From: a methanotrophic endosymbiont of Bathymodiolus puteoserpentis (Logatchev)
Lineage (GTDB): Bacteria; Pseudomonadota; Gammaproteobacteria; Methylococcales; Methylomonadaceae
Length of the DNA: 57,538 nt
Reading direction: 5' to 3'
Assembly: GCF_900128525.1 (NCBI RefSeq)
Contig: NZ_FQTQ01000083.1
Location: 1 to 57,538 of the forward strand
The notes below the pieces were generated by a model. The model saw only the letters and a program-made list of their open reading frames with translations, did no database searches and was not told the DNA's origin. Of this stretch, positions 2,071 through 30,942 are shown one piece after another. The position numbers and the translations under genes are program-made. Each line of letters opens with the position of its first letter. Position 1 is the first letter of the stretch.

Positions 2071-3213
2071 TTAAGACGCGCTGTCATCATGAGTAAAAAA
2101 AGCATGAATTGCCTCTGTCACATAATGAGCGGACTCAATGCTTAAAGAATAAAATAAAGGCAATCTTAAAAGTTGCTCGCTGGTTCTTAGGGTCTCTTTA
2201 TCAGAGCCTATAAAACGACCGTGTTTATAACCCATCGGTGTATCGTGTAAAGGTAAATAATGGAAAACGGTGTGTATTTTTTTAGCTTTTAAAAAATCAA
2301 TTAGCTGTTTTCTCAGGCGAGTCGATGGGGTTTTTATATAAAATAAATGACCATTATGTTCACAGTTCTCAGGAATATATGGTAGTTCTATAGCCTGAAG
2401 TCCCTCAAGCTCTTGGTAATAATGATTCCAAATGGCGCAGCGTTGCGTATTAATTATTTCCGCTTTTTCTAAATTAGCCAATAAAAAAGCCGCTTGCAAA
2501 TCACTCATCAAATAGCTAGAGCCGATATCTTGCCAAGTATATTTATCAACTTCACCCCGGAAAAATTTACTCCGATCCGTGCCTTTCTCACGAATAATTT
2601 CGGCACGTTCACTAAATTTTGTGTTGTTAATGACAATTGCTCCGCCTTCACCGCAGCTGTAATTTTTTGTTTCATGAAAGCTAAAGCACCCTATGTCTCC
2701 TATTGTACCTAGAGCCTGACCTTTGTAGGTGGCGTATAGGCCATGTGCGGCATCTTCAATAACTAATAAGTTGTATTTTGTAGCGAGCTCAAGAATGGTA
2801 TCCATTGCACAGCTGATACCTGCATAATGGACAGGAACAATTGCTACTGTTTTAGCGTTAATGGCTTGTTCAATGAGTTGCTCATTGATATTTTGCGTAT
2901 CGGGGCGTATATCGACAAAAATGCAAGTTGCCCCGCGTGCTACAAAGGCATTCGCAGTAGAGACAAAGGTATAGCTGGGCATAATAACTTCATCGCCAGG
3001 TTTGATATTTGCGAGGATTGCGGCCATTTCTAAGGCGGCTGTGCCTGAGCTAGTGAGTAAAACTTTTTTAGCTTGTAGTTGTTGTTCTAGTAGGGCTTGG
3101 CAACGTAGGCTGAATTGACCGTCTCCAGAGATCATCTCGGAATGTAAAGCCTGTTGTATGTAATTGATTTCGTTGCCTGTCAGAGCAAATTGATTAAAGG
3201 GAATGGTATGCAT
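2071..3213 (-). CDS. wecE: dTDP-4-amino-4,6-dideoxygalactose transaminase (DegT/DnrJ/EryC1/StrS family)
   Basis: PLP-dependent sugar aminotransferase of 380 residues, the normal length for WecE/RffA. In that subfamily it converts dTDP-4-keto-6-deoxyglucose to dTDP-4-amino-4,6-dideoxygalactose (Fuc4N) using glutamate. Visible: the fold-type-I nucleotide-sugar aminotransferase signature TSSGTAALEMAA near residue 55, VPVHYAG near 127, IEDAAHG (PLP-ring aspartate) near 152, and HETKNYSCGEGG near 180, whose lysine should form the Schiff base with PLP. HETKNY is the WecE form of the motif. The start is an ATG. The gene lies convergent to the ligase gene, consistent with surface-polysaccharide precursor synthesis. 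The exact sugar product is inferred; related aminotransferases make other 4-amino sugars. Confidence 0.8.
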   Translation of the reverse strand: MHTIPFNQFALTGNEINYIQQALHSEMISGDGQFSLRCQALLEQQLQAKKVLLTSSGTAALEMAAILANIKPGDEVIMPSYTFVSTANAFVARGATCIFVDIRPDTQNINEQLIEQAINAKTVAIVPVHYAGISCAMDTILELATKYNLLVIEDAAHGLYATYKGQALGTIGDIGCFSFHETKNYSCGEGGAIVINNTKFSERAEIIREKGTDRSKFFRGEVDKYTWQDIGSSYLMSDLQAAFLLANLEKAEIINTQRCAIWNHYYQELEGLQAIELPYIPENCEHNGHLFYIKTPSTRLRKQLIDFLKAKKIHTVFHYLPLHDTPMGYKHGRFIGSDKETLRTSEQLLRLPLFYSLSIESAHYVTEAIHAFFTHDDSAS

Positions 3214-3403
3214 AAATCCATTTAGCTGGGTAAGGGACTAGAAGGTGAATTATAACCTAATTTTTGAAAGTTCAACTCCCTTAATAAGGGTATTGTAGCT
3301 TAGAAAGCCTACAGAAATACTTGACCATTACAACGACAGTTTATAGAGCGATAAGATAAAAGTGATAAAATAAACCACGATGAACAAAGAAAGGGGTGTG
3401 GTG

Positions 3404-27543: not shown

Positions 27544-28470
27544 TTAACTATTTAAACATATTCCAACCATTGCTTTAATATTGTCTAGTTCATTTTGTAG
27601 TTTTGTCAGTGCATTGTCGCAATCGACTGGATTTATCTGTAACTCTTGAATGACTTGGTCTATATTGTTGGTTTCATGATTTTCACCGATATTAAGGCGT
27701 GTAAGTAAGCTGTCGCTGAGGTAGGTGAGCAAGTTGAGTTGATAATGAGAGCCCCGGTAATGTGGGTTATGGTGATGGTACACGACTTCTACCACTTCAG
27801 GCGGCATGTCCCACGATTTTAATAACCAGCTGCCTAGTTCGGTATGGTCTACACCTAAAGCAAACTTTTCTAATGAATATAAGTTGAGAGTAGGATTTGT
27901 GTCTGCTAGGTGAGAAAGTATTTTAAATTCTTTAGGGAATTGGTCGGCCAATAATGGTAAGCCAATGTTATGCATCAGGGCAACGAAAAAAACAGTTTGT
28001 GTGGCGAATCTATCTTCAACAGGCTGTTTTTTATTTAAATCACTCATTAAATGTGAGCTTGCTAGGGCGTGTGTCCAGAAGGCGCGTGTGCCAATAATAC
28101 CTTCAATCGGAGCTTTAAGGGGGGATAATGCTGATAAGCCTAAAACGAGATCAAAGACAAATTGATAGCCTAGTACACGACTGATAGCATCATGTACGCT
28201 GGTTATTTTACCTTTATAACCATATAGCGGGGAGCTAGCCCAACGGATGACTTGTGTGGTGAGTAAGGGGTCTAGTTCGACAATAGCGGCTAATTTATTT
28301 GCGTCTGCTAATGGGTCAGCAGCTAACTTCATAATGCGTGTTGCAATGCCTGGCAGTGGTGGCAGTTGTTTGATTTGACTCACTGCCGTTCTTAAATCGG
28401 CCGGTGGGTTTATTGGCGCGTTTTTGCTATCAATGCATTGAAATGTCCAATCAATTAACGATGGTTCCAT
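27544..28470 (-). CDS. HDOD domain signalling protein
   Basis: 308-residue protein dominated by an HDOD domain (residues about 30-240): LPPLPGIATRIMKLAADP, then ELDPLLTTQVIRWASSPLYG, then ISRVLGY. The catalytic HD pair is missing (MHNIGLP in its place), as is normal for HDOD, so it acts by protein contacts rather than hydrolysis. The gene starts 13 bases after the sigma54 activator ends on the same strand, so both are probably one transcript and one regulatory module. Confidence 0.9.
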   Translation of the reverse strand: MEPSLIDWTFQCIDSKNAPINPPADLRTAVSQIKQLPPLPGIATRIMKLAADPLADANKLAAIVELDPLLTTQVIRWASSPLYGYKGKITSVHDAISRVLGYQFVFDLVLGLSALSPLKAPIEGIIGTRAFWTHALASSHLMSDLNKKQPVEDRFATQTVFFVALMHNIGLPLLADQFPKEFKILSHLADTNPTLNLYSLEKFALGVDHTELGSWLLKSWDMPPEVVEVVYHHHNPHYRGSHYQLNLLTYLSDSLLTRLNIGENHETNNIDQVIQELQINPVDCDNALTKLQNELDNIKAMVGICLNS

Positions 28471-28483
28471 ATCGATATCCTAA

Positions 28484-29764
28484 TTAGTTAAGTTCGAGAC
28501 GTTTTAGTTTGCGATATAGAGTGCGTTCACTAATATCCATTTCTGCAGCCATCAGTTTACGGTTGCCTTGATATTTTGTTGATAGCGTATTAATGACCTC
28601 ATATTCCATTTGTATTAGCGGGTTTTTGTTGTTGTGTGAATGTGATTTGAGGGGCTGGGTATACTCAATTTCTTGGCTTTTCTGTGTAATATAAGTAATA
28701 TCGGTTTCTGTAATATGCTGATCAGTACAAAGGCTACAGGCAAGTTGTAAACAGTTTTTTAGTTCTCTGATATTACCTGGCCAAGTATGTTTTAACAGCT
28801 TAATGAGCGCTGGTTTAGTAATACTATATTGCTGTTCATCGCGTTGACTTAATTGGGCCAATAAATATTGACTTATTTCTGGAATATCATGTACTCGTTC
28901 GCGTAATGGCGGTACTTGTATAGGAAATACAGATAAGCGGTAATATAGGTCTTCACGAAATTGTCCTGCCTTTATCATGCTCGGTAAATTTCTGTGTGTT
29001 GCACAGATAATACGCACATTTGATTTTAAAGCGGTTGTGCTGCCAACTCTTCTAAACTGGCCAGACTCCAGAGCACGTAATAGTTTGGGTTGCTGAGCTA
29101 AGGGTAGGTCACCGATTTCATCAAGAAATAAAGTGCCTTTATCGGCTAATTCAAATAGTCCTTTTTTGGTGCTAGTTGCGCCAGTAAAAGCGCCTTTTTC
29201 ATGGCCAAAAACTTCGCTTTCAAATAAATCATCACTGAGTACGGTGCAGTCTACTACGACTAGCTCATGTTCTTTACAGGCGGAATGCTGGTGAATAAAT
29301 TCAGCGGCAAGTTCTTTTCCTGTGCCTGTTTCCCCCATTAAAAAAACGGGTGCGCGAGTGTGGGCTGCTTGACTGAGCTTTTGTTGGTAGGCGGTAAACG
29401 CTGCACAACTCCCAGCCATATTTTGTCTGTCGCTGGTTGTTAGTGTGTGCGTGACTTGCGTAATGGACTCTCCTAAATAGATTTTGCCATCGTTATCCAA
29501 GAGAGGGTAGCCGCGTATTGTGAGTTGTTGTTCTGCTTGTGTCTCAGTCGCGTCATAAGTTTCTAACGTTTGAAATAATTTTTGATGTCGACAATGTGGT
29601 GTTGTATTACAGCATGGCTTGCCAATAACGTCAGCTCTGGAAACAGAAAATTGTTGTTCCCAGGCTTTATTTAGCCCTACGATCGTGAGTGTATTATCAA
29701 TAATGATAAAGGGACGTTCGTGCGATTCTAGTAGAGACTCAAGTGAAATTGAATTTTCAAGCAT
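28484..29764 (-). CDS. PAS-containing sigma54-dependent activator
   Basis: 426-residue bacterial enhancer-binding protein. Residues 10-110 are a PAS domain whose loop holds C51, C52, H57, C58 and H60, a possible metal or redox site. Residues 120-345 are the AAA+ domain with Walker A GETGTGKE, the sigma54-contact loop GAFTGA, Walker B GTLFLDEIGDL and the arginine-finger region ending NIRELKNCL. The C-terminus is a Fis-type helix-turn-helix (LMAAEMDISERTLYRKLKRL). No response-regulator receiver domain is present, so PAS is the likely sensor. Its start faces an array of TGTCA sites and a sigma54 promoter that drives the divergent PEP-CTERM gene. The HDOD gene follows it. Confidence 0.95.
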   Translation of the reverse strand: MLENSISLESLLESHERPFIIIDNTLTIVGLNKAWEQQFSVSRADVIGKPCCNTTPHCRHQKLFQTLETYDATETQAEQQLTIRGYPLLDNDGKIYLGESITQVTHTLTTSDRQNMAGSCAAFTAYQQKLSQAAHTRAPVFLMGETGTGKELAAEFIHQHSACKEHELVVVDCTVLSDDLFESEVFGHEKGAFTGATSTKKGLFELADKGTLFLDEIGDLPLAQQPKLLRALESGQFRRVGSTTALKSNVRIICATHRNLPSMIKAGQFREDLYYRLSVFPIQVPPLRERVHDIPEISQYLLAQLSQRDEQQYSITKPALIKLLKHTWPGNIRELKNCLQLACSLCTDQHITETDITYITQKSQEIEYTQPLKSHSHNNKNPLIQMEYEVINTLSTKYQGNRKLMAAEMDISERTLYRKLKRLELN

Positions 29765-29786
29765 AGTATCTTTAAGTTAAGGTGCT

Positions 29787-29842
29787 TGTCATGATTGTCA
29801 TTTTGACATGTCAGCATTGTCAGGTGGGCTGACAAAGTGTCA
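29787..29842. promoter_or_regulatory. array of TGTCA/TGACA half-sites (predicted enhancer)
   Basis: Seven TGTCA or TGACA pentamers within 56 bases, starting at 29787, 29796, 29804, 29809, 29818, 29830 and 29838. They form overlapping palindromes: TGACATGTCA (29804-29813, perfect), TGTCAG-N5-CTGACA (29818-29834) and TGACA-N3-TGTCA (29830-29842). The array sits 23 bases upstream of the activator start and 56-111 bases upstream of the sigma54 promoter, the usual position for enhancer sites. Binding by the adjacent activator is inferred. Confidence 0.75.
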
Positions 29843-29897
29843 GTCTAATAGACTTTATTCTAGTTCAATGTCGCTACATTTCAAGGCTTTTAACAAT

Positions 29898-29913
29898 TGG
29901 CATCAGGATTGCA
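29898..29913 (+). promoter_or_regulatory. sigma54 (-24/-12) promoter of the PEP-CTERM gene
   Basis: TGGCATCAGGATTGCA matches the sigma54 consensus TGGCAYRNNNNTTGCW at every fixed position except one (C for R), with exact spacing. It points toward the gene starting at 30032, leaving a leader of roughly 105 bases. Confidence 0.8.
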
Positions 29914-30031
29914 GTATTAGGATTTGTAATTTGAATTTTTACTGCCACACCTGCTGTGAAGTAGGCTCGGAAAGCTTCAGGTCTTTTGTTGTAAAAGATA
30001 GCTGAGTTATGTGATCTATAAGGATAATCGA

Positions 30032-30736
30032 ATGAAAATCTATAAATTAATATTTGTTATTTTAATAAGTGTATTTATATAGTGTTGTATTTTCTGCAAG
30101 CGTACCATTTGATGCTACGGGTATTTTAAAAACAGGGAGTACTTATGCAGGGGTATTAACGTAGAGTTAGACGGCACTGCCCGGAATAATTTAGGCGGTG
30201 GTAATATACTTAACAGTGTACTTGATGGGAAAGGTTTAATTTATGCTTATTGTATTGATATATATCACTCTATAGGTCTGAATCAAGTGTATAACGCTAA
30301 TTACAATAATAAAGCCTTTTTTGCTGACAGACCTGAACTGACGGAAGAAAATGGCGCTAAGATCGCGTGGTTAATTTTGAATATAGCTGAGACGGCAGTT
30401 GAAAAATATCAGCAGGCAGGGTTGCAAGCTTTAATTTGGGAGCAAGTCTATGGGGCTACAAGATTTACTCTGAATACCTCTACAGATGATCGTATAGAAA
30501 CTGCTTATAATGAGTATTCAGTAGCATTAGGCGCTAACATGGCATCTGTTAATAATGTTCTGTGGATTAGTCCTTACCGAAATGCTACTTCGCATCAAGA
30601 TTTAGTGGCTTGGGGGGAGGGGTTTAACTTACGTCAGTCAGCAAGTGTACCAGCTCCAACACCTGTATTATTACTTATGCTTGGGTTGTTGGGGTCAGCT
30701 ATAGTTTCACGCAAAAGGTTGGGGGTTAATGAGTAA
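30032..30736 (+). pseudogene. PEP-CTERM protein with thioester-like domain, frameshifted
   Basis: Secreted protein gene interrupted by two opposite single-base shifts. ATG 30032 opens a signal peptide (MKIYKLIFVILISVF) that meets a stop at 30080. The sequence continues in another frame (VVFSASVPFDATGILKTGS, 30084 to about 30150), then returns to the first frame (VELDGTARNNLGGG onward) to 30736. The mature part has YCID (Cys codon at 30251) and LQALIW (Gln codon at 30424), the Cys-Gln pairing of thioester domains that bond covalently to targets. The C-terminus is a PEP-CTERM-type sorting tail, VPAPTPVLLLMLGLLGSA then RKR, which directs exosortase processing. Without correction only the part from GTG 30287 is readable. 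Recent inactivation or sequencing errors are both possible. It lies downstream of the sigma54 promoter. Confidence 0.7.
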
Positions 30737-30942
30737 TTTTTAATAAGCGTTATCACTATCACTTTCAGTTGATTTAGGCCTATTTAGAGTAGGTCGGCGG
30801 GTCTTGAAAAGGATTTGTCGGCCTATTTTTTTGGATTATTAGCAGCCTACTATGCTGAAGTACCTATTTTGTTGTATATTGGTTATGACTTTAATGGTCA
30901 TAATGTATTGTGATTTACTTTAAAACTTTAGTGAGCAAAATA

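Follow-up and report, generated by a model that had tools for sequence, protein, structure and literature searches.

The 57,538-nucleotide contig NZ_FQTQ01000083.1 of a methanotrophic endosymbiont of Bathymodiolus puteoserpentis (assembly GCF_900128525.1; the whole contig is here called the window, and the genome is a 3.23 Mb draft in 208 contigs) carries what is probably a two-input control unit for an exosortase-sorted surface protein, in which an activator with a Cys/His-bearing PAS domain, an array of TGTCA/TGACA sites and a sigma54 promoter would govern transcription while a cyclic di-GMP (c-di-GMP) riboswitch would gate the mRNA. Exosortase/PEP-CTERM systems are widespread in environmental bacteria, and to our knowledge little is known of the switches that control single exosortase substrates. 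A preliminary description of this DNA had joined activator, array and PEP-CTERM gene into one regulatory unit, a view supported by the comparison of relatives set out below; the riboswitch, the broken reading frame of the target, the invariant Cys/His motif of the sensor and the distinctness of the activator from PrsR were absent from it. The elements, in window coordinates, are as follows.

27544-28470, minus strand: HDOD protein, second gene of the activator operon (Pfam HDOD, 148.9 bits)
28484-29764, minus strand: sigma54 activator with PAS, sigma54 AAA+ and Fis-type helix-turn-helix (HTH) domains (Pfam)
29585-29614, minus strand: codons of the PAS motif C51 C52 ... C58 R59 H60 (orthologue alignment)
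29787-29842, no strand: array of seven TGTCA/TGACA half-sites, putative enhancer (pentamer count against Markov simulation)
29857-29884, minus strand: candidate sigma70-like promoter of the activator, TTGAAA-16-TAGAAT (10 of 12 matches)
29898-29913, plus strand: predicted sigma54 -24/-12 promoter TGGCATCAGGATTGCA (sequence and shuffles), with a predicted start near 29924
29934-30014, plus strand: c-di-GMP-I (GEMM) riboswitch aptamer in the 5' leader (RF01051, 46.3 bits; gathering threshold 35)
30020-30024, plus strand: likely ribosome-binding site AAGGA, directly 3' of the aptamer (sequence)
30032-30736, plus strand: putatively secreted thioester-domain PEP-CTERM protein, frame broken twice (thioester domain 25.0 bits; homologues)
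30251-30253 and 30425-30427, plus strand: codons of the putative thioester Cys and Gln (homologue alignment)
30647-30718, plus strand: PEP-CTERM sorting tail (TIGR02595, 18.7 bits; cut-off 16)
30786-30829, plus strand: intrinsic-terminator-like hairpin past the PEP-CTERM gene (scan: one seen, 0.8 expected)

The array consists of seven exact pentamers, starting at 29787, 29796, 29804, 29809, 29818, 29830 and 29838 and spanning 56 bases, which confirms the count given earlier. In 900 Markov-simulated windows (300 each of order 1, 2 and 3) no 56-base span held more than four such sites, and TGACA forms the densest pentamer cluster of the window, poly-A excepted. Its core, TGTCA-N7-TGACA-N3-TGTCA (29818-29842), occurs as an exact pattern once in the window's own genome, and related arrays are found at loci L016, L078, L101, L103 and others. 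A lone TGTCA-N-TGACA pair, tried as a signature, is not special (29 per strand genome-wide against 21 for the reversed pattern). The promoter TGGCATCAGGATTGCA begins 55 bases past the array, much as had been described, and none of 200 shuffles of the 95 bases 3' of the array reached its score. A loose -24/-12 scan of the window gave 57 matches with 55.6 expected, without excess, so that promoter assignments are drawn from position and conservation, which make TGGCATCAGGATTGCA a credible -24/-12 element. On the other side the activator gene begins downstream of the array, at a distance of 22-78 bases. The sigma70-like candidate reads toward the activator from 29884, and the array would therefore sit in the activator's own leader; sigma70-like scanning is near shuffle level (8 sites, 5.0 expected).

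The activator was correctly recognised as a PAS-type sigma54 regulator, its PAS, AAA+ and HTH domains all exceeding the Pfam cut-offs (PF00158 217.8 bits, PF02954 25.6 bits). It has the sigma54 AAA+ domain with GAFTGA loop and the Fis-type HTH of bacterial enhancer-binding proteins, and both loop and HTH are conserved among the aligned orthologues. It is not a PrsR: the TIGR02915 score is 264.9 bits against a cut-off of 502.6, and Pfam finds no receiver domain, the N-terminus being PAS. Every one of 62 aligned orthologues (the 61 family copies and that of L017) has C51, C52, C58, R59 and H60 in its PAS domain. A PAS model built from four sequences (predicted local distance difference test, pLDDT, 81.8) resembles the PAS domains of CitA, Aer2, FixL, Dos and NifL among others at 12-19 percent identity, a similarity that would indicate the fold and not the ligand. 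The signal is most likely redox, O2, NO or metal state, perceived through a metal, iron-sulphur or haem-linked site. In 54 of 61 copies an HDOD gene was seen within the 1.5-2 kb retrieved around the activator, and of the seven copies without one L130 and L149 border a contig end; this shared neighbourhood suggests that the HDOD protein may take part in the unit. A more distant homologue, in another gammaproteobacterium (L019, region 2200-3320), is 42 percent identical and stands opposite a gene for a 1003-residue protein with five CxxCH motifs, cytochrome-like, where TGTCA sites and TGGCATGACAATTGCA are also present; this kind of regulator may have existed before it came to serve PEP-CTERM genes.

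Evidence for a unit comes from relatives. Activator orthologues at E <= 1e-100 are present in 57 of 237 genomes of the family, in 11 of 29 genera and 61 copies, and a PEP-CTERM gene faces the activator in 29 of these 61, the facing gene being the first divergent open reading frame (ORF) of at least 90 residues and its tail being judged from sequence. In L143, L144, L145, L147 and L158 that gene starts 600-950 bases off, and in L107 the frame continues for some residues past the tail; L114 and L148 (remnants) and L157 (ORF running off the piece) were counted as lacking it. When 32 proteins were scanned (the 29 facing ones, the window being represented by its open part, with L078, L114 and L148), TIGR02595 matched 18 at E <= 0.1, Pfam 18 at E <= 0.01 and the most-matched PEP-CTERM family 31. 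Their ectodomains differ, being of thioester type in 3 of 32, of an unnamed 'DGNLSDWG' type or of others. Upstream of the activator a near-perfect palindrome (at most one mismatch) is found in 27 of 29 copies with a facing PEP-CTERM gene and 10 of 32 without (Fisher p 8e-7), compared with 43 of 1220 shuffled upstream regions; at least two sites within 60 bases occur in 29/29 versus 13/32, and at least three sites in 23/29 versus 10/32. L078 was left out of the palindrome counts because its activator is broken.

The geometry is likewise kept across these differing proteins. Close to the promoter the pair most often seen is TGACA-N4-TGTCA (17 of 32 upstream regions), which is frequently preceded by a TGTCA at a distance of 12, 13 or 21 bases. 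Of 63 copies (the 61 of the family, L017 and L078, the last two from Methylococcaceae metagenome-assembled genomes), 24 have an exact site separated by 52-56 bases from a -24/-12 promoter downstream, with a mode of 54 (16 copies), whereas shuffling the promoter side gave such a gap in 20 of 6300 cases. The spacing is also kept in the absence of a facing PEP-CTERM gene, in L017 and L159 and around the single-site relics L109, L110, L114 and L118, and similar gaps occur at distant PEP-CTERM promoters (52 in L297 and L298, 53 in L341 and L270, 56 at the second array of L269). We therefore regard activator, array and PEP-CTERM gene as one regulatory unit, given the 29 facing genes, the palindrome association and the near-fixed gap, and the array as the probable enhancer of the neighbouring activator. 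At L017 (4260-4430, minus strand) activator, HDOD gene, array and -24/-12 promoter at the usual gap are followed by no PEP-CTERM gene; a terminator-like hairpin, seen by eye, lies about 70 bases on and then glyA. This locus is possibly a sigma54-dependent small RNA or one that has lost its target.

Arrays also occur away from the activator. The exact three-site core was found in 14 of the 57 activator genomes (35 matches, among them six at the activator itself and overlapping ones, and no reversed controls) and in 10 of the 180 others (12 matches, 3 controls). At 6 of 19 distant exact-core places in activator genomes a PEP-CTERM-like gene adjoins (G015, G016, G096, G146:1606761, G195:C85 and G203:C79; the ORF of G015 runs off the piece and was so called from its likeness to that of G016). 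With one mismatch allowed, 5 of 12 hand-picked places precede PEP-CTERM genes (G020, G021, G022, G097 and G116). In G195 and G116 no PEP-CTERM gene faces the activator, yet one adjoins a distant array; L341 of G195 (271-520), remote from the activator copy L159, combines an array, a promoter (gap 53), an aptamer and a PEP-CTERM gene at one locus. In G150, in which the activator was not detected, one array stands ahead of a PEP-CTERM gene and another does not, and G149, in which no activator orthologue was counted, has an array identical letter for letter to that of L078. The expectation that other PEP-CTERM genes share the array thus holds in relatives, but support within the window's own genome is thin. 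Six PEP-CTERM matches are present there, on contigs C83 (the present target), C108, C170, C181, C100 and C144, and among the five further ones several sites are seen in C108 alone, namely TGACA three times in direct orientation between -268 and -237 and TGTCA once at -179, with no palindrome and no clear -24/-12; C170 has one TGTCA at -363, C181 none and C100 one in the 243 bases available, while C144 lies at a contig end. Two observations in other genomes are recorded here. At L334 (2007-2090, G203) nine TGTCA/TGACA sites, contained in a 22-bp repeat, fall within 150 bases, flanked by a PEP-CTERM gene on one side and a different gene on the other. G011 has four exact arrays (L289, L290, L293 and L332) with no PEP-CTERM gene seen adjoining, which represent either a wider regulon or a repeat family.

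These distributions bear on the identity of the protein that binds the array. A true PrsR is encoded in the window's genome (C92:51617-52948, 717 bits against the cut-off of 502.6), and a regulator of this type is predicted to control PEP-CTERM genes elsewhere with sigma54 (PMC1569441), so PrsR might bind the array while the PAS activator does another job. We consider this improbable, as the published PrsR motif ends in TTTACA and a string search found neither TTTACA nor TGTAAA in 29765-29898, and as the exact core follows the PAS activator in its distribution among genomes and adjoins its gene.

The leader of the target adds a second probable input. The RF01051 match, the only one in the window's genome, begins about 10 bases past the predicted sigma54 start and ends ahead of the AAGGA, and the same family is found in the same place in the leaders of L016 (51.4 bits), L078 (51.2), L101 (48.8) and L103 (45.4), the last two belonging to another genus. 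In these five the aptamer starts 36-45 bases past the first base of the -24 element. Since the aptamer ends just ahead of the ribosome-binding site, we propose that expression is also gated by the level of a cyclic dinucleotide. Among the 12 array pieces by PEP-CTERM genes that are distant or in G150, an aptamer is present in one, L341 (46.6 bits). More widely, RF01051 matches at E <= 0.001 occur in 125 of the 237 genomes, and 73 further aptamers were read, the 30 best-scoring and 43 hand-picked from the best matches listed, and thus not a random sample; 27 of these precede an ORF with a PEP-CTERM-like tail (called by regular expression within 1.4 kb pieces), 36 an ORF running off the piece and 10 neither. 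Many of the best-scoring riboswitches (L160-L189) lie ahead of long ORFs (more than 430 residues) that are cut off by the end of the piece and in which no PEP-CTERM tail was seen. The leader of the C108 PEP-CTERM gene (L191), suspected by eye of holding a degenerate GEMM, gave no cmscan match at E up to 5.

Whether ligand would turn expression on or off is no more than hinted at by the leader folds. These are no more stable than shuffles (z -0.43, -1.46 and -0.24), though in the minimum-energy folds of the L078 and L016 leaders the ribosome-binding site lies in or next to a hairpin, not significantly against shuffles, which suggests that it would be hidden when ligand is absent. In L101 (2784-2830) and L103 (2594-2640) two mutually exclusive hairpins were seen by eye past the aptamer, with a U-rich run after the second in L101. 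They suggest that the switch of that genus, in contrast to that of the window, is of the terminator type.

The target itself was described as a secreted protein with a PEP-CTERM tail. The tail stands by TIGR02595, which scores above its cut-off, but Pfam PF07589 on the same tail falls below (15.3-15.8 bits, cut-off 20.7) and the frame is broken twice. The tail is accompanied by a single exosortase in the genome (193.3 bits), as expected of an exosortase substrate, and a hydrophobic N-terminus was seen by eye in the L016 and L078 homologues, which are intact at 235 residues. Homologues of the target protein are uncommon, being present in 10 of 237 genomes (E <= 1e-5). The thioester domain scores 25.0 bits in the open part from 30161 and 16.8 in the shorter listed ORF, against a Pfam cut-off of 22, and PF08341 gives 23 bits in L078 and 21.3, below the cut-off, in L016; the segments YCID and LQALIWEQ, with the conserved Cys and Gln, are identical in the three homologues, although the Pfam score is near the cut-off. 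The AlphaFold model of the protein is not confident (pLDDT 31.8).

Taken together these features suggest how the unit would work. The activator would be synthesised from its own sigma70-type promoter and, on a signal received at the N-terminal PAS domain via the CC...CRH ligand set, would oligomerise on the TGTCA/TGACA array. From there it would loop the DNA and open the sigma54 promoter, some 54 bp distant, while array occupancy in its own leader would limit further activator synthesis. The product, if translated, would reach the envelope or matrix through export and exosortase sorting, and its thioester domain may bond covalently to a surface.

A number of our observations weigh against this interpretation, and two of them lead to distinct explanations. 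The association counts ignore shared ancestry, and a single genus (g17) accounts for many of those copies that lack a PEP-CTERM gene. Of 30 loci at which a PEP-CTERM gene is present, 7 gave no promoter in the 95 bases next to the array; in five of these seven, copies from genus g19, a candidate promoter lies further on. L142 and L151 have a poor or oddly placed candidate, that of L151 being weak. At 13 of the 19 distant exact-core places no PEP-CTERM gene is seen, which in some cases is due to the next ORF extending past the piece, and the three-site pattern with one mismatch was rejected as a discriminator (99 matches versus 26 controls in activator genomes, 102 versus 34 in the rest), for which reason the exact pattern was used. 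The palindrome of the ten copies that lack a facing PEP-CTERM gene may serve the activator itself or other genes. The array could then be mainly an operator of the activator's own gene, with the PEP-CTERM gene a chance or secondary neighbour, and its place just upstream of the activator start and downstream of the sigma70-like promoter would agree with this. We give this explanation little credence in view of the near-fixed gap to the -24/-12 element, the PEP-CTERM association and the arrays at distant PEP-CTERM genes.

The riboswitch is a restricted part of the proposed unit. When the fetched pieces of all 61 activator copies were scanned at the gathering threshold, an aptamer was present in the facing leader of only four (the window, L016, L101 and L103), the fifth being that of L078, and it is therefore not a general part of the unit but belongs to it in two genera only. 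The aptamers in question also differ at one base. In Vc2 numbering the ligand contacts are G20, A47 and C92, of which position 92 is model position 83 and contacts one guanine of c-di-GMP. Read at a fixed distance from the match end, this base is U in all five activator-facing aptamers and C in 68 of the 73 others (U in five), while position 20 is G in 5/5 and 71/73, and A47 is kept, by eye, in the alignments; the five U92 aptamers come from two genera and are not independent. According to two studies, mutants at positions 20 or 92 bind c-di-GMP less well, and a G20A/C92U double mutant of the model aptamer (dissociation constant about 4900 nM) can bind cyclic di-AMP (PMC9049102, PMC7288161). 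The U at position 92 may mean weaker c-di-GMP binding. A bolder reading is that the activator-facing aptamers form a G20/U92 subclass of GEMM-I tuned away from plain c-di-GMP, for example to 3',3'-cyclic GMP-AMP with U92 pairing its adenine or to a much higher c-di-GMP threshold, and make an AND gate with the Cys/His-PAS signal. This we hold to be a long shot, since L341 shares box, promoter spacing and aptamer yet has C at position 92.

In the strain at hand, the target has no intact reading frame in this assembly: the frame from the ATG at 30032 holds one TAG and one TGA, with homologous residues between the breaks in another frame. Decay is also seen in relatives, in the L114 and L148 remnants and at L078 (4501-4940), where the activator is interrupted by stops while array, promoter, aptamer and target are intact; no HDOD gene was found in L078. 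The unit could accordingly be dead in this organism and survive as a relic, which we take as the less probable case but one with a real chance. Array, promoter, aptamer, activator and HDOD gene are all present and open here, and two close, frame-restoring breaks with homologous residues between them would also fit an assembly error in a draft of 208 contigs. Our preferred interpretation, of a two-input unit whose target may still work in this strain, is held with that reservation.

If it is correct, production of a matrix protein is tied to two sensory inputs, the PAS ligand and a cyclic dinucleotide, both of which are directly testable, and the array-promoter geometry offers a search key for further members of the regulon. 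Exopolysaccharide bands at the meeting point of oxygen and methane gradients are reported for some members of this group of organisms (PMC11072679). New here is the combination of a one-component activator, a box other than that of PrsR, a near-fixed array-promoter geometry and, in two genera, a riboswitch leader; among the papers listed by searches of an open-access library, none was seen to connect PEP-CTERM with both a PAS sigma54 activator and a c-di-GMP riboswitch.

The individual parts have several known counterparts. Thioester-domain adhesins of the PF08341 type are known from Gram-positive bacteria, and the target resembles them in a Pfam thioester domain above cut-off in the window and L078 and in the conserved Cys and Gln, but the match is weak and an exosortase tail replaces LPXTG. 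PspF, which activates pspA, is a divergent, self-limiting sigma54 activator; the present activator is likewise divergent from its target with enhancer sites between them, near the activator's own promoter, whereas PspF has no PAS domain and drives a stress operon, and autorepression would here be the analogous feature. A link between c-di-GMP riboswitches and PEP-CTERM genes is already known from Methylophaga GP59, in which four of seven c-di-GMP-I riboswitches are reported to flank PEP-CTERM-type genes (PMC12530212). The window shares with it an aptamer above gathering score ahead of such a gene, and differs in that the aptamer follows a sigma54 promoter that has an activator of its own. In Aquincola a PEP-CTERM gene has been shown to depend on RpoN (PMC9850573). 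Closest is the PrsK/PrsR system, for which Haft et al. (2006, PMC1569441) describe sigma54 promoters with an upstream 17-nt box ending in TTTACA before 99 of 167 proteobacterial PEP-CTERM genes, a box-to-promoter spacer averaging 62.8 nt (32-92) and a promoter-to-start distance averaging 71 nt (23-221). Here too a PEP-CTERM gene lies behind a -24/-12 promoter with an activator box upstream, at a spacer of 55 and a promoter-to-start distance of about 118. The activator, in contrast, has a PAS and no receiver domain and is encoded beside its target together with an HDOD protein, the leader holds a riboswitch, and the box is of TGTCA/TGACA type and not TTTACA-ending, in a comparison made on the TTTACA end of the published box. 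With its different activator architecture, sub-cut-off PrsR score and different box, the unit is thus not a member of the PrsR system, though it would work in much the same way.

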